From a virus: DNA of 33,765 nucleotides. The stretch spans positions 1-33,765 of the IMG/VR virus record IMGVR_UViG_3300046507_000899. The stretch is one strand, 5' to 3'. Made by a program: the position numbers and the translations under genes. The notes beneath the pieces were generated by a model. The model searched no databases, was not told the DNA's origin, and worked only from the letters and a program-made list of their open reading frames with translations. Of this stretch, positions 7,301 to 33,765 are shown one piece after another (the stretch's first letter is position 1; each line of letters opens with the position of its first letter).

Positions 7301-9222
7301 GCGTTGATGCGCGCCAGCAGCCCGCCGTTGGCGCCGGCGACGTCCTGCACCTGCTGGATATCATTGCTCATGCCCGAGAACAAGGCGTCGAACTGCGCGC
7401 GGGTCTGGTTAAAGCTGGCCTCGGACAGGCCCGCCTTCCATGCCTGCTCAATCGCCGCCTGCAGCTCGGTGTTGCCGTCCAGCTGAGCCTTGATCATCAC
7501 ATCCATGTAGCGCTTCGAGAAGTCGGCAATGAATGCGCCAACCAGGTCGCCGCGCTTTTTCATCGCCTCCGTGTCGATACCCTCGATCGTCTGCTGAATC
7601 GTGTGCTCCAGCGTCACCCTGCGTTCAGCATCGGCATCGTCGAGCTGCTTGCGCTTGGCGTTGAGCTGGTTGATCTCGGCCGTATATTTTTCGATATCCT
7701 TGGCGTTGTTCGTCGGATCCTGTTGGGCGGCGGCCAACTCCTTCTGGCGAATGGCGATCTCGTCAATGACAGCCTGCTGTTCGGCGGCATGTCGCTGATC
7801 CAGGTACTGCACATCACCGATCAGCGCGCGCGCGTGCTGCGATTCCAGCGCCTGCAAATGAGCGGCTAGGCCGTCCTCTTCCAGCTTGTAAAGGCCGTCC
7901 TGCTTGGCGAGGTATGCTTTATAGGCGTTGTCGGCCGCTGCCGACGACGCGGTGCTGAAATTGAGAGGCGCGAGTTCCGGCGTGGCGGCAACTTCCTGAG
8001 TAGCAGCCTTGCGCTTTGCGATCGCGGCGGCCATGGCCTTCTCGAAACGGTTCCCTTCCGCGTTCCACAGTGCATCGTAATTTGCATTCGATTGGGCCAG
8101 AACTTTGTTTCGCTCGTCCAGGGCCGCCTTGAATTCAGCGATAGGATTCTTGCCCTGCGATACTGCAGCGCTGATGCCCTGTGGGGACAGCGTTTGAAGC
8201 ACCGTCAAGTCCGCGGCGACGGCCTTGAAACTGCCGATGACTGCCGTTGCCGTTTTCGGGATCAGCAAGAACACATCGAGCAGGCGCGCCAATCCCATGG
8301 CGCCGGCATCGGCCCAGTCGGTGATCGAATTGTCCTTTGCGAGGCTCTTGACGGCGTCGTTGGTCACGTTCGTCTTCTTGGCCGCATCGAGCAGGACAGC
8401 CGCGAAGTCAGTCATCGTCGGCAGCAGCGACACGGCGACGGTTTTGAACAGCTGCCCTTTCTGGGCATCGAGCTTCGCCAGGTCGCGCTGGTATTGGCGC
8501 GCAGCCGCTGCCTGAGCATCCGTGACCTTGGCCTCGATGTCGCCCTGCTCAGCGATCAGCTTCAGCGTGGGCAGCATGTCGGCGCCGGATTTTCCGAACA
8601 GCGCCTGCGCGATCGCAGCCTTGCCGGCGCCGTCGCTATACAGAGCCAGCTTGCCGGCGATCTCGGTGAACATCGCCGACGGATCTTTCAAATTACCGGA
8701 CGCATCTTTGGCGCTGATACCCAGGTATTTCAGCGCGGCGCCAGCGCCCTTGGTTTCATCATCGGCGCCGGCCATGCCCTTCGACATTTTGCCCAGCGCG
8801 GCCGTGATGGCGTCGATGTCAGTGCCCGACTGCTTGCCGAAGAAGGCCAGCTTCGACAGGTTCTCAACGCTGGAGCCGGTTTTCTCCGACAGCGTCTTCA
8901 AATTCGCCATGCTATCGATGACGCCGAGGATCTTGTTTTTGATCGCATCGATGCTCATGCCGGCGGCGGCGCCCAGCAGCAGGCCTTTGCCCAGCGAGAT
9001 GGCGGCTGACTGCGCACGATCGATCTGCGACTCCAACGAGCCGAATTTAACGGTCAGACTCTGCAGGGGCGCCAGCGAGCTCTCAATCGATTTTTTGATG
9101 TCGCCCAGGTCGCTCGCCATCTTCGCCGATGACGACTGCACCAACTGCGTGGCCGTATTCATGTCTTGCTGTAGCCGGGCGATGTTCGCCATCAGCTGCA
9201 GTTCGAGTGTTCCAGCATTCAT
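4327..9222 (-). CDS. tail tape measure protein
   Basis: 1631 aa, by far the largest gene, between the tail chaperones and tail-tip genes, as in all siphoviruses. Tape measures set tail length and are ejected ahead of the DNA. Seen: a helical N-terminus with LQQDMNTATQLVQSSSAKMA; a Gly/Ala-rich membrane-active stretch near 890-945 (TVILPVLGTAVGALIGGLVG); long Ala/Gln-rich coiled-coil segments, including a tandem repeat at about 1280-1400; and a C-terminal motif common in tape measures, GGIASGLSLVGERGPELVDF. At about 1.5 angstrom per residue it would span roughly 240 nm (general rule, not measured). A terminator lies just upstream at 9235-9256. Confidence 0.93.
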   Translation of the reverse strand: MNAGTLELQLMANIARLQQDMNTATQLVQSSSAKMASDLGDIKKSIESSLAPLQSLTVKFGSLESQIDRAQSAAISLGKGLLLGAAAGMSIDAIKNKILGVIDSMANLKTLSEKTGSSVENLSKLAFFGKQSGTDIDAITAALGKMSKGMAGADDETKGAGAALKYLGISAKDASGNLKDPSAMFTEIAGKLALYSDGAGKAAIAQALFGKSGADMLPTLKLIAEQGDIEAKVTDAQAAAARQYQRDLAKLDAQKGQLFKTVAVSLLPTMTDFAAVLLDAAKKTNVTNDAVKSLAKDNSITDWADAGAMGLARLLDVFLLIPKTATAVIGSFKAVAADLTVLQTLSPQGISAAVSQGKNPIAEFKAALDERNKVLAQSNANYDALWNAEGNRFEKAMAAAIAKRKAATQEVAATPELAPLNFSTASSAAADNAYKAYLAKQDGLYKLEEDGLAAHLQALESQHARALIGDVQYLDQRHAAEQQAVIDEIAIRQKELAAAQQDPTNNAKDIEKYTAEINQLNAKRKQLDDADAERRVTLEHTIQQTIEGIDTEAMKKRGDLVGAFIADFSKRYMDVMIKAQLDGNTELQAAIEQAWKAGLSEASFNQTRAQFDALFSGMSNDIQQVQDVAGANGGLLARINAAGVADSIREKAIPALQDYVTQLQVLAASSNNSALVKQANDMARALTQQIQKVQPVWNDMIKSIDDTFESGLEASMSNVSGAWNSFTTDLKNKFKKNLIDEIYQMFLKPFVMQVVVSGANSLGLSGLANAASLAGGGGSSGTSGVTSLLQTGKAAYDTYSMALGSSLGTAVAGFGNLIGSSAISAFGSGMGLTASQAAAAAQAYSAAGATETASALTAGSSAGAALGAAGSIGAGVLGGVYGGRAISGEYGSNGTVNTGVAAGAAIGTVILPVLGTAVGALIGGLVGGLANRAFGMGNKEVTSQSIQGALNGNAAFTGNNVATWHQDGGWFRSDKNGTDTSPVDDTTAKAFTDSYASIRAISGALATTLGVDASSLATRSQALNITITGDATKDQQAVADFFSGVADTIAVELVPNLASFQATGETLSATLQRVSTDYAGVDLVLKTLGATAQSAFGATGTAAIGFSEGLIKAAGSLDSLTSGTTYFAENFLTPAQQIAPIVDDVKASLASLGMAGVNTTQEYADAVLKLTQSGALATAAGQAQYAALLALAPQFKQAADYTDGLTNALGGLVSVTRSASDVASEHADLQNQLNKLTLTAAQLTALQRDAIDDSNKALFDQVQAEQAKQDASAAAAAAATAAADDQAKILDQQAQLYAATGDAAGAAAVLEQQHEAALVGLSPALAAATQATWDAQAAATAKAASDKAAADALATSNSLLDIQAQIYQVTGDKAGAAAVLEQQHIAALAAMDPALRGATEQLYAVQAAAASQQAAADALSGFAQGIQATVDAAKSAIDTFKKFKDSLYVGDQSPLSKQDQYTVAKAQFEAAGPNDLQAAATTFLTAAKATDSVIQYAKDFSAVQAALDSAIKGKQGTIAGAGNVAQSFAQALAGAGIGAHANGGIASGLSLVGERGPELVDFQQPARVYTASQTSGMLGSSQALVDRLDTLIEQSGLMHDESKKTAKASQSTADTLQRATKGGTALYTVPA
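5016..5363 (-). repeat. tandem 70-residue duplication inside the tape measure gene
   Basis: Two blocks about 138 bases long, offset by 210 bases (about 5016-5153 and 5226-5363), encode near-matching peptides: GDKAGAAAVLEQQHIAALAA and GDAAGAAAVLEQQHEAALVG, each preceded by QAQIYQVT or QAQLYAAT and followed by a PALRGAT/PALAAAT segment. This is an in-frame tandem duplication in a coiled-coil region. Confidence 0.75.
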
Positions 9223-10124: not shown

Positions 10125-10231
10125 GAGTGTTTCCTTTTCGAGGGAGATAAAAATGCCCGTGCCCGGCCCGCCCGCCCCTCGAAGGGCGAAAGCGGACCAG
10201 GTCGGTGCTAGGGGCGGCCGAAGCCGAAGGG

Positions 10232-10693
10232 TTACGCCGCGGGAGCGACGATGGTGTCGGTCTGGCGCAGCAGCGTGAAGGCGCCTTTGACGGCGTCGTT
10301 GCTGGCGCCGTTGTTTTCGACGAACTTCATGACCTGGGCGGTGAAATAGCGCAAGGATTGGTTCTGCTTTTTCACCTTGAACGACGGCACGGTGTAATTG
10401 TTGGCTGCCGCGGCGAGGATAAGCTGGCCGGCGTCGTCTTCGATCCAGGCGCATTCAAAGTCCGCGTTCGGCAGGCTGAAACTGCCTTTCTTTTCACGAT
10501 CCTGCGCGTCGTCGATGGTCGACAGCGTCGACGTCTTGTACTCGCGGCCCAGAACGCTGGGAATCTGGGTGATCTTGCCGACCTTCACCCAGGTAAGCGC
10601 GGCGAAGCCGGTGGCGTCATTGGTCGCCGGGGCGCTGACGCAAACGAAAAGCTCGGTACTGGCGACTGTGTCGAAATCGTCTTGGATGGGCAT
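10232..10693 (-). CDS. major tail tube protein
   Basis: 153 aa, from MPIQDDFDTVASTELFVCVS to RQTDTIVAPAA. Length, acidic beta-rich sequence and the place just upstream of the G/GT chaperones match siphovirus tail tube proteins of the lambda gpV/HK97 gp6 type, which stack as hexameric rings to form the tail. Supporting segments are WVKVGKITQIPSVLGREY and SLPNADFECAWIEDDAGQLI. AAAGG lies nine bases before the ATG. A terminator precedes the gene at 10713-10749. Confidence 0.82.
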   Translation of the reverse strand: MPIQDDFDTVASTELFVCVSAPATNDATGFAALTWVKVGKITQIPSVLGREYKTSTLSTIDDAQDREKKGSFSLPNADFECAWIEDDAGQLILAAAANNYTVPSFKVKKQNQSLRYFTAQVMKFVENNGASNDAVKGAFTLLRQTDTIVAPAA

Positions 10694-22470: not shown

Positions 22471-22995
22471 CTACTTCGCGCGACGCCGAGCCGCGAAGGT
22501 GATCAGGCCCAACCCAGCCAACAGCATGCCATACGTCTCAGGCTCGGGAATTGGCGTTAAGGCTGTCACTTTTATATCCACGGGCGAGCTGATCCAGTTT
22601 GTCCTCGCGCCGGGCACTGTATAAACGAAATAGCCAGTGTCAGCATAGACGCTTTCGAAAATAAAGCCATCTCCGCTGCCGGCACGCAATCCACCAGGAA
22701 TTGGAGTGCTAACAATTACCATGTACTCATCGGAATAGAGCCCGATTTCAGAAAGATCAAAACGGTGTCCATCGAAAGTTAAATTTACACTTTTGATACT
22801 GTCCCATTGAACACCTTCGCCAGCGGCAGAATAGACAATTGAACCTTTGATCAGATCTTCTGGTGCTGGTATCGAGGATTGCGTGGAAATATCCGTAAAG
22901 TTTGATGCAGTAAAGTCAATTCTGAAATCTTCCGCCTTGGCCCCACTAACGCAAAAAAAGAAAGCTGCCGACAGTGCCGCGATGCGCATCAACAT
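22471..22995 (-). CDS. PEP-CTERM sorted exoprotein, prophage moron
   Basis: 174 aa. It has an N-terminal signal peptide (RIAALSAAFFFCVSGAKA, cleavage likely near 21) and a canonical C-terminal sorting tag at about 150-174: PEPETYGMLLAGLGLITFAA followed by RRRAK. PEP-CTERM proteins are exported, cut by an exosortase at the tag and usually placed on the surface or in exopolysaccharide. The middle part is beta-rich and resembles no enzyme I know. GGGGA seven bases before the ATG at 22995 fixes the start. It has an AT-rich promoter region upstream and a terminator downstream, the layout of a phage moron. Its codons are clearly more AT-rich than the neighbours, which suggests separate acquisition. 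Confidence 0.88.
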   Translation of the reverse strand: MLMRIAALSAAFFFCVSGAKAEDFRIDFTASNFTDISTQSSIPAPEDLIKGSIVYSAAGEGVQWDSIKSVNLTFDGHRFDLSEIGLYSDEYMVIVSTPIPGGLRAGSGDGFIFESVYADTGYFVYTVPGARTNWISSPVDIKVTALTPIPEPETYGMLLAGLGLITFAARRRAK

Positions 22996-24652: not shown

Positions 24653-24850
24653 TCAGCCCTCCTGAGCTGAGCCTTTACACATCACCGTCGCCGTTGTTGT
24701 GACTCGCAAGCCTTTCGATTCGATGGTGCTTACTTCGCCGCCATCTGCCCCTGTTTCAGAATCTTTCCCACAGTAGGAGCACTCCCCACGCGCCGCTGTT
24801 GTTTCCCGACCGGCGCGCTGTTCATTGCCGACTTGCTCAGCCCACGGCAC
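24653..24850 (-). CDS. possible small zinc-binding-like protein, uncertain
   Basis: 65 aa from GTG 24850, overlapping the primase stop by 14 bases. It holds RGECSYCGKDSETGADGG, a CxxC knuckle, and a later MCKG. An alternative frame in the same stretch encodes a 31-aa peptide (MNSAPVGKQQRRVG...). I cannot tell which, if either, is translated; the CxxC version reads slightly more like protein. Confidence 0.3.
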   Translation of the reverse strand: MPWAEQVGNEQRAGRETTAARGECSYCGKDSETGADGGEVSTIESKGLRVTTTATVMCKGSAQEG

Positions 24851-25793
24851 CCCCGGGAGTGCGCACGCGCATCAGCACGCTGGCCAGCGCGGTCATCCCG
24901 GCGCGCACGTGAAGGTCGTTCGCGTCCTCGCCCAGCACCGGCGACATGCAGTAAGGCAGGCCCGCCGCGCGCGCTGCAGCCTCGCCGGCGCCGCTCTTGT
25001 CGTGATCGGCGACGACGAAGCGCTTGCCGGCGATCAGCGACGCCACGTGCGCCAGGTTGCCGGCGCTGAAGCACACCACCACGGCGGCGTTCAGGCGCAG
25101 CCTGCGCAGCGCGAGCTCGATGGACAGTCCTGTGGCATACCCCTCGCACAAAAACGTCTCCCTGGCCCGCTTGCTGCCCAGCCAGAGCACGGCGCCCTTG
25201 GCGCGCATGCCGAAGGCCATCTTCTTTTCCCATTCGCGCGGGCCGGCCAACCATTCGATCGTCTGCACGCCGCGCAGCTCGTTCGTCTCGACGTCGCGCA
25301 TCGGCACCACCAGCACGCCGTCTGCGTCCAGCGCCAACACGTCGGGCAAGCCCTTGCCAGACAGGTAATTGCTGCGCTTGACGATGCAGCGGTCGACCAG
25401 CGCCTGCGCGCGCGCAGCAGCTTGGCGGTATCCCCTCTCTTTGCGGGCCTCCTCTGCCGCTGTCGCTGCGTCGCGCGCCGCGCGCAGGCGTCGGCGCTCC
25501 TCGATCTCGCTTGGCGTCAGCGGCCCGCGCGACACGGTGTCGTCGCGCCAGCCGCGGCTTTTGGCCTCGTGGTACAGCGTGCCGATGCCGACCTTGCCGG
25601 CGGCGCCGACGCTACGCCAAACGGACTTGGCCGCGCGCGCGTCGTAGGAATCGGCCGTCTGACTCCAGGCGTCCCAGATCTCGAAGCCGTCCTCGAAGAA
25701 CTCGGCCTTGACGGCCATGGCCATGCGCACCCAGGTTTCGCGCTCGTGCGCTGGGATAAACGACAGGGCGGCGGCAGCTTTATCCATGCTCAT
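24837..25793 (-). CDS. phage primase-like protein (PriCT-2 + TOPRIM)
   Basis: 318 aa. Residues about 5-80 match a PriCT-2 module (AALSFIPAHERETWVRMAMA then AWSQTADSYDARAAKSVWRS). A basic helical linker (100-135) leads to a TOPRIM domain: FLCEGYATGLSI (214-225, catalytic Glu 217), RFVVADHDKSGAGE (258-271, DxD 263/265) and GEDANDLHVRAG (288-299). No zinc finger or helicase domain is present. It overlaps the helicase gene by ATGA, so it likely primes replication together with that helicase. Confidence 0.88.
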   Translation of the reverse strand: MSMDKAAAALSFIPAHERETWVRMAMAVKAEFFEDGFEIWDAWSQTADSYDARAAKSVWRSVGAAGKVGIGTLYHEAKSRGWRDDTVSRGPLTPSEIEERRRLRAARDAATAAEEARKERGYRQAAARAQALVDRCIVKRSNYLSGKGLPDVLALDADGVLVVPMRDVETNELRGVQTIEWLAGPREWEKKMAFGMRAKGAVLWLGSKRARETFLCEGYATGLSIELALRRLRLNAAVVVCFSAGNLAHVASLIAGKRFVVADHDKSGAGEAAARAAGLPYCMSPVLGEDANDLHVRAGMTALASVLMRVRTPGGAVG

Positions 25794-27319
25794 GCCGATG
25801 CCTTCCGTTTCGCGAAGGCGATATTTTTCGTTTTAATCTTGCTCATGACTTTAGGGTGGACGGGCATGTTTGCTGCCACGTCGAATTTGAAATCGTTGGG
25901 CGGCCACTCGCCGACCATGTCTTTGAAGAGGCTGGCGGCACGGCCGCGCTGCTTGTCCGGCGCACTCTTGCCGGCGGCGTAGGCGCACAGCTGGAGCCAC
26001 AGGTGATGGCGGTCTTCCGCTACCTTGTTCTTGCCCAGCATGACCTCGCGCATTTCGCCGACTTCGACCTGGACCTGCGACGGCGCCACGTATTCGTGGC
26101 CGCAGGCGATGCAGCGCCGCGCGAACGGTTTGAAGCTGCAGGCCGGGCAGCCTTTGGCCTCGTATTCCTTGTTGTCGACGCGGACCTCTTTGTCCAGCTT
26201 CTGGCCGTCGTCGAGCGTGTGCAGGCCGTCGAAGTAGATCCGGCTGAAATCCTCCATGAAGCGCAGAATATTGCCGCTGTGGTCCAGCAGGATGCAGTCG
26301 ACCTTTCCGGTCTCCGGCGACGCGCGCAGCCCCCTGCCCCACATCTGGATCGCAGTGCTAAGCGACTTGCGCAGCGGCCGGCAGTCGATCACGCAGCCGA
26401 CCGTCGGCACGTCGAAGCCTTTCGCCAACGCCTCGACCGATACCAAAACCTTGAGCGCGGAATCGATCTTGCGGTACTCGGCCAGCAGCTGCTCGCGCTC
26501 GAAGGTGTCGGTCTTCGATGTGAACACGGCGGCCATGATGCCGGCCTCGTTGAACTGGCGGCAAATCTCCTCGCAGTGCGCGATGGTGGCGCCGAAGGCA
26601 ATTGTTTTGCGGTTTTCGGCGTAGCGCATCCACTCGACCACCACGTCGCCGATCACTTCCATCCCGCGCTGCTCGGCCGCCTTGTCGGTCCACTCGCCGC
26701 CGGCCGTCGACGCGCCGTCCATGTTCGGCTTCGTGCAGCTGTAGACGCGCATCGGCACGAGCACGCCCGACTTGGTCAGCTCGTCCATCGTGGTGGCGTT
26801 GATCAGGTTCGAGAACAGCTTGCCCAGGCCGGCCGAAAACGGTGTAGCGGACAGGCCCACCACGGACGCGCTGCAGGTCTGGATATAGTCGGTCCAGACG
26901 CTGAGCTGCGTGTGCGCCTCGTCGATCACGATCACGTCTGCCTTGGGCCAGCCGCGATTTTTGAGGGTTTGCGCGCTCGCGATCTGCATCGGCAGTTCGG
27001 GGCGAAAGCGCCAGTGCGCCGCCTGAATAACGCCATGCGCGGACAGGCCGTATTGATCGGCGGCCGCGCTGGTCTGGTTGATCAACGTGGTGCGGTCGCA
27101 GACGAACACCACGCGGCGGCCCTTGAGCAACGCCTCGTGCGCCACGCGCAGGCCCAGGTAGGTCTTGCCGGCGCCGGTAGGCGCCATGATCAGCTGATTC
27201 TTGTGCCCGGCGCGCCGGCCTTCGCGCAGCGCATCGTGTGCGCTGGCCTGGAACGCGCGCGGCGCCGGGAAGGTGCTGGTCTCGTAGCTGGGCGCCGAGT
27301 CGAACAACGGGCCGATCAC
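25790..27319 (-). CDS. SF2 DEAD/DEAH-box helicase
   Basis: 509 aa. Motif I APTGAGKT at 46-53, motif II VIDEAH at 131-136, motif III SATPFSAG near 157-164, and motif VI QMWGRGLR at 325-332. A four-Cys zinc site follows at 391-406 (CPACSFKPFARRCIACG), common in phage and mobile-element helicases of this group. The tail (RAASLFKDMVGEWPPNDFKF) matches the usual end of such proteins. It unwinds DNA for replication and is coupled by ATGA to the ParB-like gene and the primase. Confidence 0.92.
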   Translation of the reverse strand: MIGPLFDSAPSYETSTFPAPRAFQASAHDALREGRRAGHKNQLIMAPTGAGKTYLGLRVAHEALLKGRRVVFVCDRTTLINQTSAAADQYGLSAHGVIQAAHWRFRPELPMQIASAQTLKNRGWPKADVIVIDEAHTQLSVWTDYIQTCSASVVGLSATPFSAGLGKLFSNLINATTMDELTKSGVLVPMRVYSCTKPNMDGASTAGGEWTDKAAEQRGMEVIGDVVVEWMRYAENRKTIAFGATIAHCEEICRQFNEAGIMAAVFTSKTDTFEREQLLAEYRKIDSALKVLVSVEALAKGFDVPTVGCVIDCRPLRKSLSTAIQMWGRGLRASPETGKVDCILLDHSGNILRFMEDFSRIYFDGLHTLDDGQKLDKEVRVDNKEYEAKGCPACSFKPFARRCIACGHEYVAPSQVQVEVGEMREVMLGKNKVAEDRHHLWLQLCAYAAGKSAPDKQRGRAASLFKDMVGEWPPNDFKFDVAANMPVHPKVMSKIKTKNIAFAKRKASA

Positions 27320-28221
27320 GATGCACGCTCCAGCTTTTCCAGCTTCTTGCGCTGTGCGTTGATGACGCGGATCTGCTCGTTGACGGTGTTCTGCAAACCG
27401 GCGTTGCGCGACTCCAGCACCGCATTCATGCGGCGCATCGTGTCGACGTCGGTCAGCGCGACCGTCAGCGGGTCCTCCGCGCGCTCCAGCAGGTCGCGGA
27501 TGTACTGCGCTTGGTCGGCGTCGGCTTTCAGCGCCGCGGCGACCTCTTCATCGGACGGTCCCACGTGTTCGTGCTCAACTTCCACCGGCGGTGGATCTGC
27601 TGCAGGCGCTGGCGTGGCCGGCGGTGCGGCCGCGATGTCGACGGCCGGCGCCGCGGCAGGCTTTGCAGGGGTCACAGTTTTTGCGGCGGCGTTGATCGAG
27701 AGCTCGCCCGACCTCACCTGAGCGACGACTTCGGCCGAGGCCTTCTCAATGATTTTTTCGACCTTGCGGACGGTGTCGCGGCCGACGCCGGCCAGTTTCG
27801 CCACAGCGTCATCTGTCCGCACCCCAGCTTCGTCTGAATTCGGACGAAGCTGGGGTGCCAGGCCGCCAGTCGACGTGGCTTGGCGCTCGCGCGCGCGCTG
27901 TTCCAGCAGTGGCTTCAGTTTCAGCGCCAAGGCCGTACGCGCGAAATCGGTCGCGTTGCGCTTGCCCAGCTGGTTCTCGATCATCCAGATCTTGACGTCG
28001 CTCTTCGTGCGCAGGCCCGACTTCTCGAACGTCTGGAAGGCAATGCCGTGCTTCTGGCAGATCGCATAGCGGTTGTGCCCATCCAGCAGGTAGCCGCCCC
28101 ACACCACCAGCGGGTCACGGCAGCCCTCGGCCAGGATACTAGCCTCAAGCAGCGCGAACTCCTCCGGCGACAGCGGATCAATCCAGGCCTGAAGCTCGGC
28201 GTCAATTTCGAGGTCGAGCAT
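27316..28221 (-). CDS. ParB-like nuclease-domain protein
   Basis: 301 aa from MLDLEIDAELQAWIDPLSPE; GGAG lies nine bases before the ATG at 28221. An N-terminal ParB/Srx-type domain (DPLVVWGGYLLDGHNRYAIC with the family's DGHNR at about 47-51) is followed by GLRTKSDVKIWMIENQLGKR and NATDFARTALALKL, then a DNA-binding helix-turn-helix near 130-155 (VAKLAGVGRDTVRKVEKIIE). A Pro/Ala linker and a coiled-coil C-terminus (LESRNAGLQNTVNEQIRVIN) follow. No ParA partner is near, so it is probably a replication or regulatory DNA-binding protein rather than a partition pair. A 40-bp palindrome lies in the gene. Confidence 0.82.
   Translation of the reverse strand: MLDLEIDAELQAWIDPLSPEEFALLEASILAEGCRDPLVVWGGYLLDGHNRYAICQKHGIAFQTFEKSGLRTKSDVKIWMIENQLGKRNATDFARTALALKLKPLLEQRARERQATSTGGLAPQLRPNSDEAGVRTDDAVAKLAGVGRDTVRKVEKIIEKASAEVVAQVRSGELSINAAAKTVTPAKPAAAPAVDIAAAPPATPAPAADPPPVEVEHEHVGPSDEEVAAALKADADQAQYIRDLLERAEDPLTVALTDVDTMRRMNAVLESRNAGLQNTVNEQIRVINAQRKKLEKLERAS
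27819..27858. repeat. perfect 16-bp inverted repeat (40 bp) inside the ParB-like gene
   Basis: GCACCCCAGCTTCGTC (27819-27834), eight-base loop TGAATTCG, then the exact reverse complement (27843-27858). It stays in frame and encodes part of APQLRPNSDEAGVR. The length is far above chance for coding DNA. Confidence 0.9.
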
Positions 28222-28223
28222 GC

Positions 28224-28331
28224 TCACGCGCTCCACAGATCAAAGCGCGCGAACGCGCGGGTGACGGTGGCGCCGGAAATCAGGCCGCGCAGATAAAGCG
28301 TCATGATTGCGCGCTTGAGCAGGAATTTCAC
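28224..28331 (-). CDS. 35-aa phage microprotein
   Basis: Not a long frame but well supported: GTG at 28331 overlaps the stop of the 238-aa gene (GTGA), AGGA lies seven bases upstream, and it stops just before the ParB-like start. The peptide begins MKFLLKRAIMTLYLRGLI and ends ARFDLWSA: basic, amphipathic, with a Trp-containing tail. Such tiny genes are common in phage replication regions; the role is unknown. Confidence 0.6.
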   Translation of the reverse strand: MKFLLKRAIMTLYLRGLISGATVTRAFARFDLWSA

Positions 28332-29044
28332 GATGGCTTCCTTTCGACCACGCGCGAGCCGGCCGCGTCGTGCACGGTCAGTGCCGGCGCCTGGCGCAGC
28401 ATCGTCCCGTCAGGCTGCTGAAAATATTTCGGCACGCCCTCGAACAAGCCGCACGGCGCGAACAGCGCGTCGAAGATCGGGCGCGTCGCCGCCCTGCCCT
28501 CTGGCGTGGAAAACATCTTGTGGTGGATCTCGGCGTTGACGCAGGCGTGCAGCGGGCGGTCATTGAATTCGTCGGCGCGGTGCTCGGCGGAGTCCTCGAG
28601 ACAGTAAGCAGCCATCAACAGGACAATGCCAGGGTTCGGCTCGTCGATATCGGAGCGGTCGGTGATATTGCAGCCCAACAGGTCCAGGCGCTGCGACAGC
28701 GTGGTGATCGCGTCGATTTCCGGAGCGACGTCTATCAGGGCGCCGCCTAGGTCGCGCATATGGTCGCGAACGATTTTCAGTTCAGCGTCTATGTCGCCGA
28801 TATAGGCATCCAGCTGAGCGATGCGATGCGCGTTGAAATGGCCGGCGGCGAGCTGGCTGCGGAATCGCTGGGCACGGCGCCGGTCGACATGGTATTCAGC
28901 TTGGATGCGATGCGCGGCGCGTGCCATGCGGCGCAGGCGCAGGAACACAGTCATCGGTGACGACAGCACAGGCGTGATCGGAAGAAATTTAGGGCGCAGG
29001 ATTCCCGCGCCGGCCGGTTGCCCGGCGGCGTTTGAGGTATTCAT
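28328..29044 (-). CDS. phage protein of unknown function, 238 aa
   Basis: N-terminal basic helical half (MTVFLRLRRMARAAHRIQAE, FRSQLAAGHFNAHRIAQLDA) with a coiled segment about 75-115, then a C-terminal half with PNPGIVLLMAAYCLEDSAEH and FDALFAPCGLFEGVPKYFQQ. AAGGG lies nine bases before the ATG at 29044. It lies between the AlpA-like regulator and the 35-aa gene, in the early operon. No catalytic motif recognised. Confidence 0.68.
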   Translation of the reverse strand: MNTSNAAGQPAGAGILRPKFLPITPVLSSPMTVFLRLRRMARAAHRIQAEYHVDRRRAQRFRSQLAAGHFNAHRIAQLDAYIGDIDAELKIVRDHMRDLGGALIDVAPEIDAITTLSQRLDLLGCNITDRSDIDEPNPGIVLLMAAYCLEDSAEHRADEFNDRPLHACVNAEIHHKMFSTPEGRAATRPIFDALFAPCGLFEGVPKYFQQPDGTMLRQAPALTVHDAAGSRVVERKPS

Positions 29045-29056
29045 CGGCAGGTGCCC

Positions 29057-29311
29057 TTAAGCGGCGTGCTGGCGGGCGGCGACGAGCTTGGCGACCAGCT
29101 CGCGCATTTGACTCTCGGATTTTCCGGATACGCGTGCAGCGATCAGGGTGTCAACTTCATTGGATGGCCAGCCGACAGCGCGGGGGCCGATGTGAATGCC
29201 AGGCGGGAGGACCTTGTCCTCGATGTGCTTGTAGATGGCCGAAGACTTAAGGCCAAGGCGGGATTCAAGCTGCTTGCGGCGAAGGATTTGAACGGTCACG
29301 ATACTCTCCAT
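29057..29311 (-). CDS. AlpA-family helix-turn-helix regulator
   Basis: 84 aa from MESIVTVQILRRKQLESRLG. AlpA/MerR-like winged HTH: LRRKQLESRLGLKSSAIYKH (recognition helix about 15-28), then PPGIHIGPRAVGWPSNEVDT, the wing typical of AlpA (GPRxVGW). Phage AlpA-like proteins switch early genes or excisionase. The start at 29311 lacks a clear SD; translation may be coupled or leaderless. A 35-bp palindrome (29365-29399) lies 54 bases upstream. Confidence 0.85.
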   Translation of the reverse strand: MESIVTVQILRRKQLESRLGLKSSAIYKHIEDKVLPPGIHIGPRAVGWPSNEVDTLIAARVSGKSESQMRELVAKLVAARQHAA

Positions 29312-29364
29312 TTGTTGACGTTTCGGTCGATGGAGGTATCTTCCATTATTAATCTTTAACCTAA

Positions 29365-29399
29365 AATGCAAATGCACCCTATTTGGGTGCATTTGCATT
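29365..29399 (-). terminator. 15-bp perfect palindrome: intrinsic terminator or operator before alpA-like gene
   Basis: AATGCAAATGCACCC, loop TATTT, GGGTGCATTTGCATT. On the minus strand it overlaps the stop of the 276-aa gene and runs into TTTTAGG, so it can act as an intrinsic terminator. Its symmetry also suits a protein operator for the AlpA-like gene. Confidence 0.68.
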
Positions 29400-30228
29400 A
29401 CCTACTTTGGACCTGTTTAATCCCGGTTGGAATCCACGTTTTTAAATTCCTCTCGCTCAGCCCCGGGTATCCTTTATAAACCTCTAGCGCCTCATAAATC
29501 CGCTCCGCGACAATCTTCTCCTCGCCGTGGAATTTTGCCTTCCACAGTTCTGTACTTAACGCCCCTATGATATTAAGGAGCGCGGTTTTGGTTTTTCCCG
29601 CCAACTCGTCATCCACCTGCTTGGGTTCAGCAACGGCGGTCATATAACCTTCTCTCTCTGCCCAATCGAGCCACTCGACGATGAAGCCCTTATCCTGAGC
29701 CCACGTCACGAATTTCGATAAAGGAAAGCGCCCCTCCCCGTTACTGCTACTTGTCCACCACTGCGTGAGTTGAGCCAATTCGCGCTCAAATTTTTCCTTC
29801 ACAGCAGCAACAGCGCCCTTCGGGAGCATCATCATAGCCAAAGGGTCGTAGGGTTCTAAACCATCTAGACGCATGAACGGCCCCGGGTGCGACCCACCAT
29901 CGACATGTCGCAGCTTTCTACAGAAACCACACAGGAGCGGCAAAGCCTCGGTCGCGGTCCACAACTCACAGCCAAGCCAAAATTCTAACCAGACCGGCGG
30001 GTGACAATTTTTTAACAACGCGAACATGTCACGACTTGCAGCCGCTAGACGCTGCACACCGTCTTCGTGCTCGTCTATGTCGAACTCAGTGATTTGATAC
30101 CTCCGCCCATTGATAGAAGGCCGCGCAGTGCACGCGTTTGCCATACGGCTGACAGACGAGAGATACTCGCCGCTCATCGCGATCAACTTAGGATCGTTTT
30201 CAAATTGCTTTGCATCGTTCGCCGACAT
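29398..30228 (-). CDS. phage protein of unknown function, 276 aa
   Basis: From MSANDAKQFENDPKLIAMSG. Aromatic-rich first half with VWLEFWLGCELWTATEALPL and CGFCRKLRHVDGG (a CxxC). The second half is charged and helical (LAQLTQWWTSSSNGEGRFPL, FVTWAQDKGFIVEWLDWAER), ending KTWIPTGIKQVQSR. GGAG six bases before the ATG at 30228 fixes the start. Proteins of this build are often found next to AlpA-type regulators in phages and islands, possibly as DNA-binding or host-interaction proteins. Not recognised. Confidence 0.72.
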   Translation of the reverse strand: MSANDAKQFENDPKLIAMSGEYLSSVSRMANACTARPSINGRRYQITEFDIDEHEDGVQRLAAASRDMFALLKNCHPPVWLEFWLGCELWTATEALPLLCGFCRKLRHVDGGSHPGPFMRLDGLEPYDPLAMMMLPKGAVAAVKEKFERELAQLTQWWTSSSNGEGRFPLSKFVTWAQDKGFIVEWLDWAEREGYMTAVAEPKQVDDELAGKTKTALLNIIGALSTELWKAKFHGEEKIVAERIYEALEVYKGYPGLSERNLKTWIPTGIKQVQSR

Positions 30229-30262: not shown

Positions 30263-30427
30263 TTATGCTAGATTAACACCGGTAAATGATGTTATCCACA
30301 CCACGGAGCTTGCGTAGCGTAGTTGGTACGCGTGGTGTGTGAGCGCCAGAAGCTGTGGTAGCAATTCAGGCCAGGGCCGTGCGCCCAGGTTGACCATGAA
30401 AATCATGGCCACCAGTTCAACCGGCAT
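30263..30427 (-). CDS. possible 54-aa protein after the 174-aa gene
   Basis: Starts at ATG 30427 inside the end of the 174-aa gene (11-base overlap), with GGAG only four bases upstream. Peptide MPVELVAMIFMVNLGARPWP then ELLPQLLALTHHAYQLRYAS. Short and hydrophobic. Its codons also hold an inverted repeat (30297-30339), so conservation could belong to an RNA structure instead. Confidence 0.38.
   Translation of the reverse strand: MPVELVAMIFMVNLGARPWPELLPQLLALTHHAYQLRYASSVVWITSFTGVNLA
30297..30339. repeat. 9-bp inverted repeat CACACCACG...CGTGGTGTG with inner hairpin
   Basis: Perfect arms at 30297-30305 and 30331-30339. The 25-base loop holds a further short pairing (GCGTA/TACGC on the minus strand). 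It lies between the 174-aa gene and the 276-aa gene and could be an RNA element or operator. Confidence 0.6.
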
Positions 30428-30941
30428 CGCGCTCCAGAACGACGCTGAAATGGAACCCGAGCAGGCGCGCCAGGTGAGCGCGGCCCTGGGTGAACCGGTC
30501 AACGTGGAACAGCGCCAATTCAACGTCGAAATACAAAAATTGATCTTCGTACAGGACGACGATCTCGTCAGTCCCAAGGCCCAGGCCCAGCGTGGTGCCG
30601 TGGAAGATGAACTGCATCGGCGAGCCGTCTGCAGGCGGCGGGATCTCGGCGCCGTAGCCGAGCAGCTCGAACGGGACTTCGGACTTCGCTGGTTTCGGTG
30701 GCGCCGGCGGCCACATGCGGATCTCGATATTGCCCTGCCACGCAGGAAACTGCGCGGGATCGGCCTGGCGCATTTCGATCAGGCGGTGGGCGTCGGGCAC
30801 CGATGTAGCCCACCAGAGCTGGCGGCCGTCGGCGGCGAAAAGGTCGCATATCGGCGGTTGAGCTTCGGTGTCGTCTTGGACTGCGGATTGCGAGGAATTG
30901 TCTGCGCTGACTGCGCTCGGCGTGGGCATGCTATTGACCAT
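30417..30941 (-). CDS. 174-aa phage protein under RNA leader control, unknown
   Basis: From MVNSMPTPSAVSADNSSQSA with a strong GGAGG six bases upstream (start 30941). The rest holds ADGRQLWWATSVPDAHRLIE, WQGNIEIRMWPPAPPKPAKS and a C-terminal LFHVDRFTQGRAHLARLLGF. In P1 and P4 the gene controlled by the C4/CI leader is an antirepressor or killing protein; this one matches neither by eye. Its place behind the leader suggests it is an early gene kept silent in the lysogen. Confidence 0.68.
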   Translation of the reverse strand: MVNSMPTPSAVSADNSSQSAVQDDTEAQPPICDLFAADGRQLWWATSVPDAHRLIEMRQADPAQFPAWQGNIEIRMWPPAPPKPAKSEVPFELLGYGAEIPPPADGSPMQFIFHGTTLGLGLGTDEIVVLYEDQFLYFDVELALFHVDRFTQGRAHLARLLGFHFSVVLERDAG

Positions 30942-30961
30942 GGGTGGCCTCCGGTGTGGTG

Positions 30962-31084
30962 TTAAACCGCACATCCCGTCGCCAAACGGGGTGAGCAGCA
31001 AATGGCGGGGTTGGCGAACCGGTACACACGGAAACCGGCATACCCGAAGGTATCCCCACCACTGCCGCTCATGGAGAAGGTCAT
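30962..31084 (-). CDS. Icd-like short ORF within the immunity leader (possibly not translated)
   Basis: 40 aa, MTFSMSGSGGDTFGYAGFRV then YRFANPAICCSPRLATGCAV. This matches the pattern of widely annotated Icd-like peptides (GYAGFRV...ATGCAV), named for the P1 cell-division inhibitor gene, which overlap C4 antisense RNA. The conservation may be of RNA, not protein. Confidence 0.4.
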   Translation of the reverse strand: MTFSMSGSGGDTFGYAGFRVYRFANPAICCSPRLATGCAV

Positions 31085-31171
31085 GGTGTATGGACGAAAA
31101 AAAGCCGCCTGGTGGCGGTCGTCCGCCGGTGTATTCCGAGTCGCCAAACCCGTGCCCCTTTTTCTCGGGAC
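30965..31171 (-). ncRNA. C4/P4-CI-like immunity leader RNA
   Basis: From the promoter at 31178-31207 the minus-strand transcript contains GTTTGGCGAC at 31140-31149 (seqA-like), a terminator (31097-31118), an ATACC-TTCG-GGTAT hairpin, GGTTCGCCAACC at about 31009-31020 (seqB-like) and again GTTTGGCGAC at 30978-30987 (seqC-like, inside a CCCGT...ACGGG hairpin), just before the SD of the 174-aa gene. In P4, seqB in CI RNA pairs with seqA and seqC and causes early termination; P1 C4 works likewise. TCGCCAA in seqB is exactly complementary to TTGGCGA in both flanking copies. The exact ends are estimates. Confidence 0.66.
31097..31118 (-). terminator. early intrinsic terminator in the immunity leader
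   Basis: On the minus strand CCGCC, loop ACCA, GGCGG, C, then seven T. It ends about 75 bases after the expected start of the promoter at 31178-31207, so most transcripts would stop before the 174-aa gene unless the leader refolds. Confidence 0.82.
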
Positions 31172-31177
31172 CTTTTT

Positions 31178-31207
31178 AGAATAGGCCAGCGACCGGTATA
31201 ACGTCAA
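31178..31207 (-). promoter_or_regulatory. leader promoter (sigma-70 type)
   Basis: On the minus strand -35 TTGACG (31202-31207), 18-base spacer, -10 TATTCT (31178-31183). Good matches at both boxes and position just before the immunity leader. Confidence 0.6.
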
Positions 31208-31891: not shown

Positions 31892-32092
31892 CTACGTCGA
31901 TTTCCTTTCACGAAGCTTCAACTTGGCCGGCGGCGTAGCGCCAGTGATCAGCCCCCACCTCACGATCCACCGGACGGTGCGCATTGAGCCAATCTCGCCA
32001 CCCGACAACAAGCGCTCGATCGCCTTGTTCATTCGGTCTAACGCGTACACTTTTTTGTCGGCCCGCCGCCGACGCCTGGCTCGATCGGACAT
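31892..32092 (-). CDS. small basic protein, 66 aa, DNA-binding-like
   Basis: MSDRARRRRRADKKVYALDR, then MNKAIERLLSGGEIGSMRTV and RWIVRWGLITGATPPAKLKL. A very basic start plus two short helices suggests a nucleic-acid binding protein. GGAG lies six bases before the ATG at 32092; a GTG at 32104 would add four residues. It is the first phage-type gene after the plus-strand gene, so the prophage boundary lies near here. Confidence 0.6.
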   Translation of the reverse strand: MSDRARRRRRADKKVYALDRMNKAIERLLSGGEIGSMRTVRWIVRWGLITGATPPAKLKLRERKST

Positions 32093-32330
32093 CTTTATCT
32101 CCACGTGTGAATGCGCGGATGCGCACTACCATATATACGTGCGAGATTAGAAATTGGTCGTACTTAAATTGTAAGCAAAGTATCGAAAAGTGAAACTCGC
32201 ATTTTATTATCAAAAAAACTAATTTGTTAAAGCGAATATTTTGCGATAAAATTTTTCCATCGGGATAAAGACGGGTGCACGAAGAGGTGTCCGCGCAATC
32301 TTCAAACTTTTAAGGCTCGCGAGGCCGAGG
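32093..32330. other. AT-rich divergent intergenic region, likely prophage edge
   Basis: No gene seen. It separates the leftward 66-aa gene from the plus-strand DUF2158 gene, so it should hold divergent promoters. It is more AT-rich than its surroundings (for example 32200-32250). I see no clear attachment-site repeat, since only one prophage end is in view. Confidence 0.5.
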
Positions 32331-32621
32331 ATGAAATGCGTCATGGATATTTTGCGTTCGTTTGCCGAAGGGCAGCTGGTGCGCCAAAAGTGCGGTGGCC
32401 CTGTGATGTGGGTCATCTCGATAGATGAAGGTTATCCCGTTTTTCCATCCGATCAGGCTCCACCAGGCGGCGTTTGCTGCGGCTGGGAAGAAGACTCCAT
32501 CCTATTCGAGCACGTTTTTTCCCCTTACGGGCTGGACATCATCAGTGGCCAGCTTCCGCGCCTCGTGCAGGTCGAAAGAAGATCATCTATCAGGAGCGAA
32601 GTCGCTCCCCCACCGAAATAG
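32331..32621 (+). CDS. DUF2158 (YodC-like) protein
   Basis: 96 aa, the only plus-strand gene I support. FAEGQLVRQKCGGPVMWVIS matches the YodC/DUF2158 pattern (VGDVVxLKSGGPxMTV), and the later VCCGWEEDSILFEHVFSPYG fits the family's WxD...FxP end. These small proteins are of unknown function, in hosts and in mobile elements. GAGG precedes the ATG by six bases; an internal ATG at 32343 is an alternative start. The extra C-terminal tail is polar. Confidence 0.72.
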   Translation: MKCVMDILRSFAEGQLVRQKCGGPVMWVISIDEGYPVFPSDQAPPGGVCCGWEEDSILFEHVFSPYGLDIISGQLPRLVQVERRSSIRSEVAPPPK

Positions 32622-32624
32622 ACA

Positions 32625-32969
32625 TCAGTCCGTTATTTTGCTCAATTCTTCGACACATCGGCGGCATGCTTCGGCGCAATCTTTGCAATGTAGGTGCGAG
32701 TGCTTCGAGCACTCGTAAGCGCATGCCTTGCATACCTCAGCGCAGGAAAGCGAAATTAACGGCGCCATGGAGCTACCTCGGGCGAAGTAGCTTACCGCGA
32801 GCCGGCAAAATTGAGCGCAGTCGATATCTAATCCAATGCACGACGTCATCATCTTCACGTCTTCTTCTTGAAGGCATGCACTCGCACAGCGTTCACAGGC
32901 CAGGGCGCACTCGTTGCACGCGTTGATGAGGCTCTCAAAATGTGTGCTAACTTGGATGGAATTTGTCAT
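32625..32969 (-). CDS. cytosolic four-helix-bundle copper storage protein (Csp3-like)
   Basis: 114 aa with 16 Cys spaced along helices: CNECALACERCASAC (18-32), C44, C51 and C55, CAEVCKACAYEC (76-87) and CKDCAEACRRC (95-105), the DUF326 pattern. Csp proteins store many Cu(I) ions inside a tube of four helices lined with Cys. No Tat or Sec signal is present, so the cytosolic Csp3 form is likely. GGAG seven bases before the ATG at 32969 sets the start. It lies convergent with the DUF2158 gene, three bases apart, and could be host DNA or prophage cargo. Confidence 0.9.
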   Translation of the reverse strand: MTNSIQVSTHFESLINACNECALACERCASACLQEEDVKMMTSCIGLDIDCAQFCRLAVSYFARGSSMAPLISLSCAEVCKACAYECSKHSHLHCKDCAEACRRCVEELSKITD

Positions 32970-33222
32970 TTTTGATCTCCAGTTTCCTCGCATCTGCCAG
33001 TCAGATGCAGGAGTAAGCAAATCATCAATGAGATTGAATCTGAACGGTATCGGAGTAAAGAAATAAAATATGTAGGACCATTCCTGTAGTGTTATGGACG
33101 CAGAGCCACTGATTGAAACGCCAAGAATACGCAAACCTTCGCGCAGATGTCGAACCATTTTGGAAAACACCTTGTGCGCGGAAGCGGCCAGGTTGGCTCA
33201 GCTTCGGCCGACTGAGGTCGCA

Positions 33223-33249
33223 CTAAATACGTGAAATTCTCGTATTTAG
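33223..33249. repeat. 9-bp inverted repeat CTAAATACG...CGTATTTAG
   Basis: Perfect arms with a nine-base loop, in the gene-poor right flank. It is not followed by a T tract on either strand. It could be an operator, a recombination site or part of a dispersed repeat. Confidence 0.7.
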
Positions 33250-33325
33250 AATTTGCGAACGACTTAAAGTTGGTGGCAAAATCGGCGCAACGCCGGAATC
33301 GCCCACGAAGCGGGCACAAAAGGCA

Positions 33326-33346
33326 AAACCTACAGCCCGTAGGTTT
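33326..33346. repeat. 8-bp inverted repeat AAACCTAC-AGCCC-GTAGGTTT
   Basis: Perfect eight-base arms with a five-base loop, followed by CGGGCC on the plus strand. No T tract follows at once, so it is not a clear terminator. Confidence 0.65.
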
Positions 33347-33498
33347 CGGGCCGGTATCGCTCTGTGACATTGAACTTCATTCGTACTCCTTGCCGAGCAG
33401 ATCCGCCACCGCAGGCGCGAGCCGAACATCATCGCGGGCGCCTGCACGCTATATGCACGCATGTAGCGCTACTTCGCGCAAGTGAGCAAATGAAGGCA

Positions 33499-33765
33499 TC
33501 AATCGAGCAACGCGTCCACTGCTATCTTCGCCGCGCTAACGGCGGCGTTTTTTGCTTCCGACGGATGCTCGAACGTACCCTCCGCATAATAGGCCTTGCG
33601 ACGAAGGCTCCGGCTTGCCGCCTCTTGGGTGAGATCAATTTTCAGCTCGAATTTTTCGATAAATGCGATACCTGTGTAAGCCAGTTTTTCAGCAGGGTCC
33701 ATGGCGAGCTGACGTGCATGAGCCGTAATGACCCAGTCTCGATATCGAATCACAGTGGCGTACAT
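33499..33765 (-). CDS. unknown 88-aa protein at window edge
   Basis: MYATVIRYRDWVITAHARQL to VSAAKIAVDALLD. A mixed alpha/beta small protein with EKFELKIDLTQEAASRSLRR in the middle. The ATG is the last three bases of the window, so the true start could lie further out and no SD can be checked. Function not recognised; probably host. Confidence 0.55.
   Translation of the reverse strand: MYATVIRYRDWVITAHARQLAMDPAEKLAYTGIAFIEKFELKIDLTQEAASRSLRRKAYYAEGTFEHPSEAKNAAVSAAKIAVDALLD

Follow-up and report, generated by a model that had tools for sequence, protein, structure and literature searches.

Gene content of the window

The DNA analysed (hereafter the window) spans 33765 bases and is a linear fragment recorded in IMG/VR as a virus. 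Every phage gene identified lies on the minus strand; among them are genes for the terminase, portal, major head and tape measure proteins and for an endolysin. Genes for a primase, a helicase, a ParB-like and an AlpA-like protein are found on the same strand, upstream of the structural genes, and this block is itself preceded by the leader described below. A family search of the window, which is a fragment, detected no tyrosine integrase.

A C4-type leader

The leader carries the full C4 layout. In the direction of transcription, a promoter is followed by the a1b1 targets, an intrinsic terminator, the C4 RNA, the a2b2 targets and the Shine-Dalgarno sequence of a 174-aa gene:

31178..31207, minus strand: promoter TTGACG-18 nt-TATTCT (-35 TTGAC aligned in 11 of 12 relatives)
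31140..31149, minus strand: a1 target (seqA-like), 7-nt core TTGGCGA at 31141-31147, predicted to lie in the loop of a hairpin
31126..31133, minus strand: b1 target TACACCGG, complementary to b' with one bulge
31114..31127, minus strand: hairpin GGCGG-ACGA-CCGCC, proposed antiterminator (putative role), sharing GG with b1
31097..31118, minus strand: intrinsic terminator CCGCC-ACCA-GGCGG-C-T7, between a1b1 and C4
30987..31076, minus strand: C4 antisense RNA (RF01695, covariance model, 72.8 bits)
31023..31034, minus strand: b' antisense loop TTTCCGTGTGTA, within C4
31011..31017, minus strand: a' antisense core TCGCCAA (seqB-like), unpaired joining strand within C4
30962..31084, minus strand: 40-aa leader frame (Icd/orf45-like), overlapping C4 and a2, weak
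30978..30987, minus strand: a2 target (seqC-like), in the loop closed by a CCCG/CGGG stem
30948..30958, minus strand: b2 target CACACCGGAGG, which contains GGAGG, the Shine-Dalgarno sequence of the 174-aa gene

A reading made from the sequence alone had proposed an RNA immunity locus with the seqA-seqB-seqC logic of P4 and P1 C4, and had named a covariance-model search with the C4 family as a check. This search matched the Rfam model RF01695 to the minus strand at 30987-31076 with 72.8 bits (E 1.5e-12), well above the gathering cut-off of 45 bits. Antisense and target sequences also change in concert within the family (see below), and the two findings bear out the proposal. Compensatory changes were seen in 15 of the 26 predicted pairs of the C4 fold (28 sequences compared). 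The promoter that the sequence-only reading had placed upstream of the leader is present at 31207-31178, and transcription would start at about 31171. Among relatives, promoter, a1, terminator, C4, a2 and Shine-Dalgarno sequence align; the downstream genes differ. Two related models remained below threshold: isrK (RF01394) with 33.4 bits versus a cut-off of 50 (isrK-like segment 31098-31172), and c4-a1b1 (RF03163), for the upstream part of the leader, with 20.1 bits versus 46.7. The AUGG conserved near the C4 5' end is AUGAG in the window, so that trimming of this C4 by RNase P to about 77 nt is uncertain. Overall, the locus belongs to the known C4 family and is well preserved.

Antisense core and its flanking targets

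As the sequence-only reading had noted, GTTTGGCGAC occurs on either side of a complementary GGTTCGCCAACC: there are exactly two minus-strand copies, at 31140-31149 and 30978-30987, with GGTTCGCCAACC at 31009-31020 between them. The proposed antisense contact is indeed complementary, but does not span the full 10 bases, as it consists of the 7-nt core TCGCCAA/TTGGCGA plus GGG/CCC flanks. In the window, a' is exactly complementary to TTGGCGA in a1 and in a2. With one mismatch allowed, the 10-mer has 6 matches versus 3.2 expected, which is only modestly unusual when taken alone. The repeat becomes decisive because the C4 model matches and because the core co-varies with both flanking copies in other loci.

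For the comparison with other loci, two pattern scans of viral contigs, the second of which left a' free, were combined. An intact-flank filter left 98 distinct loci. This figure counts the window itself, a phage record and a match that lacked the C4 form and was later dropped. In 22 of the 25 a' types, the same 7-nt complement was present upstream as well as downstream of C4, although these types are not independent events, as the loci are related. Permutations gave a mean of 0.96 and a maximum of 6 types, and swapped pairs matched in 2.5% of cases. One viral contig (L052) has two C4 loci 1.6 kb apart (8644-8669 and 10211-10236), with the a' types TTTATCAGCC and TTTCTCAGCC. The int-alpA RNA (RF02996) was also found on several C4-bearing stretches (L002, L004, L006, L147 and L149).

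Antisense loop b' and the ribosome-binding site

A second antisense contact, of b' with b1 and b2, was absent from the sequence-only description. Pairing of TTTCCGTGTGTA is predicted at -11.5 kcal/mol with TACACCGG (b1) and at -11.4 kcal/mol with CACACCGGAGG (b2), in both cases with a one-base bulge. A complement to b' of at least 7 nt was found in b1 for 27 of 40 loop types and in b2 for likewise 27 of 40 (permutation maximum 9 each), again as counts of types among related loci. Nearly all b2 sites (63 of 64 leaders) bear a Shine-Dalgarno-like GGA(G), with an ATG 3-16 nt downstream in 62. In the window, GGAGG within b2 precedes the ATG at 30941, and the leader thus extends to the Shine-Dalgarno sequence of the 174-aa gene, as had been suggested.

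Terminator and competing hairpin

The intrinsic terminator, placed at 31118-31105, was likewise missing from the sequence-only description. Upstream of the terminator, GGCG..CGCC was present in 79 of 89 leaders, versus 0.8 expected in shuffles, and in 55 of the 62 leaders with a b1 match, b1 has the GG of this hairpin at its 3' end. In the window, the GGCGG:CCGCC hairpin (-9.4 kcal/mol) and the CCGCC:GGCGG terminator stem (-8.7) are mutually exclusive, and the hairpin can form before the terminator is transcribed. The competition with the terminator and the GG shared with b1 suggest RNA-triggered attenuation, in which C4 binding at b1 would favour termination. In equilibrium folding, blocking a1/b1 left the terminator probability unchanged, and the terminator dominated with or without C4; attenuation would therefore have to be kinetic. 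If the hairpin sharing b1 is a true antiterminator, it would account for the role of the upstream targets.

Leader frame and downstream operon

The Icd-like frame of the sequence-only reading exists as a 40-aa frame overlapping the region, and is moderately supported: it is open in 71 of 82 C4 loci, versus 41-50 for the other frames, but in the window no ribosome-binding site is clearly recognizable for it. The genes downstream of the leader are:

30417..30941, minus strand: 174-aa gene, head of the operon and first under putative control, no family match
29398..30228, minus strand: 276-aa gene of the same operon, no assigned function
29057..29398, minus strand: AlpA-like regulator (PF05930, family match)
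28328..29044, minus strand: phrog_7215 protein (PHROGs match)
27316..28236, minus strand: ParB-like protein
25790..27319, minus strand: DNA helicase (phrog_16)
24837..25793, minus strand: primase (PriCT_2/Toprim_3)

Searches of Pfam, PHROGs, NCBIfam, phage records and viral contigs gave no match for the 174-aa protein. Weak relatives (32-35% identity) were found in 2 of 146 Oxalobacteraceae genomes, both in prophages without C4. Helicase and primase are encoded downstream of the C4 leader on the same strand, and none of the genes scanned downstream of C4 matched the antirepressor families AntA, Bro-N or P22_AR.

The cassette in other genomes

A genome scan detected this C4 subtype in ten genomes, the majority of them from Oxalobacteraceae, with identical a' in all. 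Nine of the ten share 81-87% identity with the window leader (best place of each). Three Oxalobacteraceae cassettes (G007, G001 and G009) resemble the window in this leader identity and in the identical 7-nt core, yet they are followed by unrelated genes, for AAA_25 helicases or a Toprim-AAA primase, and unlike in the window, an integrase is nearby in G001 and G007. Related sequences also occur on plasmids of Burkholderia and Paraburkholderia. As judged from these sequence comparisons, the C4 leader is a mobile cassette, and one cassette fronts unrelated operons in Oxalobacteraceae genomes. The a' and b' sequences would be a readable immunity code, predicting which elements should be cross-immune.

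Comparison with known systems

The C4 motif occurs in many Proteobacteria (PMC2864571). For P1 C4, RNase P processing and the roles of a' and b' have been described (PMC5320573, PMC12197685). The window resembles P1/P7 C4 (RF01695) in the fold, the a' and b' loops, the flanking a1b1 and a2b2 and the position of a2b2 at the ribosome-binding site. It differs in having an intrinsic terminator between a1b1 and C4. P1 C4 controls an antirepressor beside the C1 protein repressor, whereas the 174-aa gene and replication genes follow in the window.

IsrK of Gifsy-1 and the P4 CI RNA with seqA and seqC (PMC4825925) provide further parallels. In layout, the window resembles the satellite P4 (seqA, seqB/CI, seqC), where the leader of a replication operon likewise holds an antisense RNA flanked by two copies of its target. 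Premature termination is the output for P4 CI RNA and would also be the output in the window. In contrast to the satellite P4, the window represents a tailed phage that itself encodes capsid, portal, terminase and tail. Gifsy-1 IsrK-orf45-anrP shares with the window a promoter, a target segment, an intrinsic terminator and a C4-like region under a small leader frame, but controls an antirepressor, and the isrK model stays below its cut-off in the window (33.4 versus 50 bits). In the window, the C4 RNA switch precedes the replication operon of a tailed phage, and not an antirepressor gene.

Proposed mechanism and alternatives

From sequence, structure, complementarity, concerted change and gene order, we infer the following course of expression, processing, repression, attenuation and immunity. 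A constitutive promoter would give rise to one transcript with a1b1, the terminator, C4, a2b2, the 174-aa gene and the replication genes. C4 RNA would be excised from read-through transcripts and act in trans: the loops of a1 and a2 would be bound by its unpaired a' core, and b1 and b2 by its b' loop. Contact with a2b2 would mask the Shine-Dalgarno sequence of the first operon gene and block its translation, which by P1 precedent would lead to premature termination. Contact with a1b1 would sequester the GG needed for the GGCGG:CCGCC hairpin; this would favour the intrinsic terminator and switch the operon off earlier. In a lysogen filled with C4, the early genes of the resident phage would be silenced, and so would those of a superinfecting phage that shares a' and b'.

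Taken together, the locus is very likely a C4-family antisense-RNA immunity leader. We give practically no weight to the view that the repeats merely reflect chance or similarity of coding sequences; although, with one mismatch tolerated, the 10-mer by itself is not a rare sequence, the covariance-model match and the concerted change across the family rule this explanation out. As the b1 and b2 contacts are bulged and AUGG has become AUGAG, the locus could also be the remnant of a former C4 switch. All elements are nevertheless present, the model scores 72.8 bits, identity to the Oxalobacteraceae copies is 81-87% and the a' core is exact in both targets, and we consider a decayed remnant very improbable.

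A C4-family immunity leader would very probably, as far as sequence can tell, silence early genes in lysogenic cells. Neither HTH_3 (PF01381) nor S24 (PF00717) families were found in the window, a fragmentary record, and no repressor was recognized among its other scanned ORFs, in line with the sequence-only remark that no CI-type protein repressor is visible. Immunity by RNA alone fits this absence in a fragment and is plausible. Alternatively, a protein repressor encoded outside the record could maintain lysogeny, and C4 would then be accessory and only tune the 174-aa gene. P1 offers a precedent, as its C4 tunes an antirepressor alongside the C1 repressor (PMC12197685), the record is a fragment without integrase, and the distant relatives of the 174-aa gene (G049 and G128) adjoin antirepressor genes in prophages that have S24-type repressors and lack C4. 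On the other hand, the window contains neither a recognized repressor family nor an antirepressor downstream of C4, and the C4 leader heads a co-directional operon with helicase and primase. We regard an accessory C4 as a serious possibility, with a less than even chance of being correct. The two C4-less S24 prophages would also fit replacement of a protein-based switch by an RNA-based one, the window record again being a fragment. The most far-reaching version of the immunity-leader reading, a full-size tailed phage whose immunity depends on nothing but a C4-type RNA, combined with partial attenuation through b'/b1 and cross-immunity within one bacterial family, seems rather unlikely to hold in all its parts. 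If immunity does depend on C4 only, phages and islands sharing the cassette within one bacterial family would be cross-immune.

Other features of the window

Upstream of the C4 leader, a 70-aa gene (31892-32104, minus strand) encodes a small basic protein, for which searches gave partial matches only. Weakly similar relatives were found in 14 of the 146 Oxalobacteraceae genomes. The region from about 32200 to 33765, with a DUF326/Csp1-like gene at 32625-33056, has partial matches in several Oxalobacteraceae genomes (host-flank searches gave partial matches only) and is probably bacterial DNA past the prophage end. Within the phage gene block, an FxDxF PEP-CTERM protein is encoded at 22471-22995 (minus strand), possibly as a cargo gene. 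Immediately 3' of the primase gene, a Betaproteobacteria-1 RNA (Rfam RF02932, 87 bits) is located at 24702-24820 (minus strand), and in Acidovorax phage AP1 (L012, 11856-11979), RF02932 also follows the primase gene (93.4 bits).
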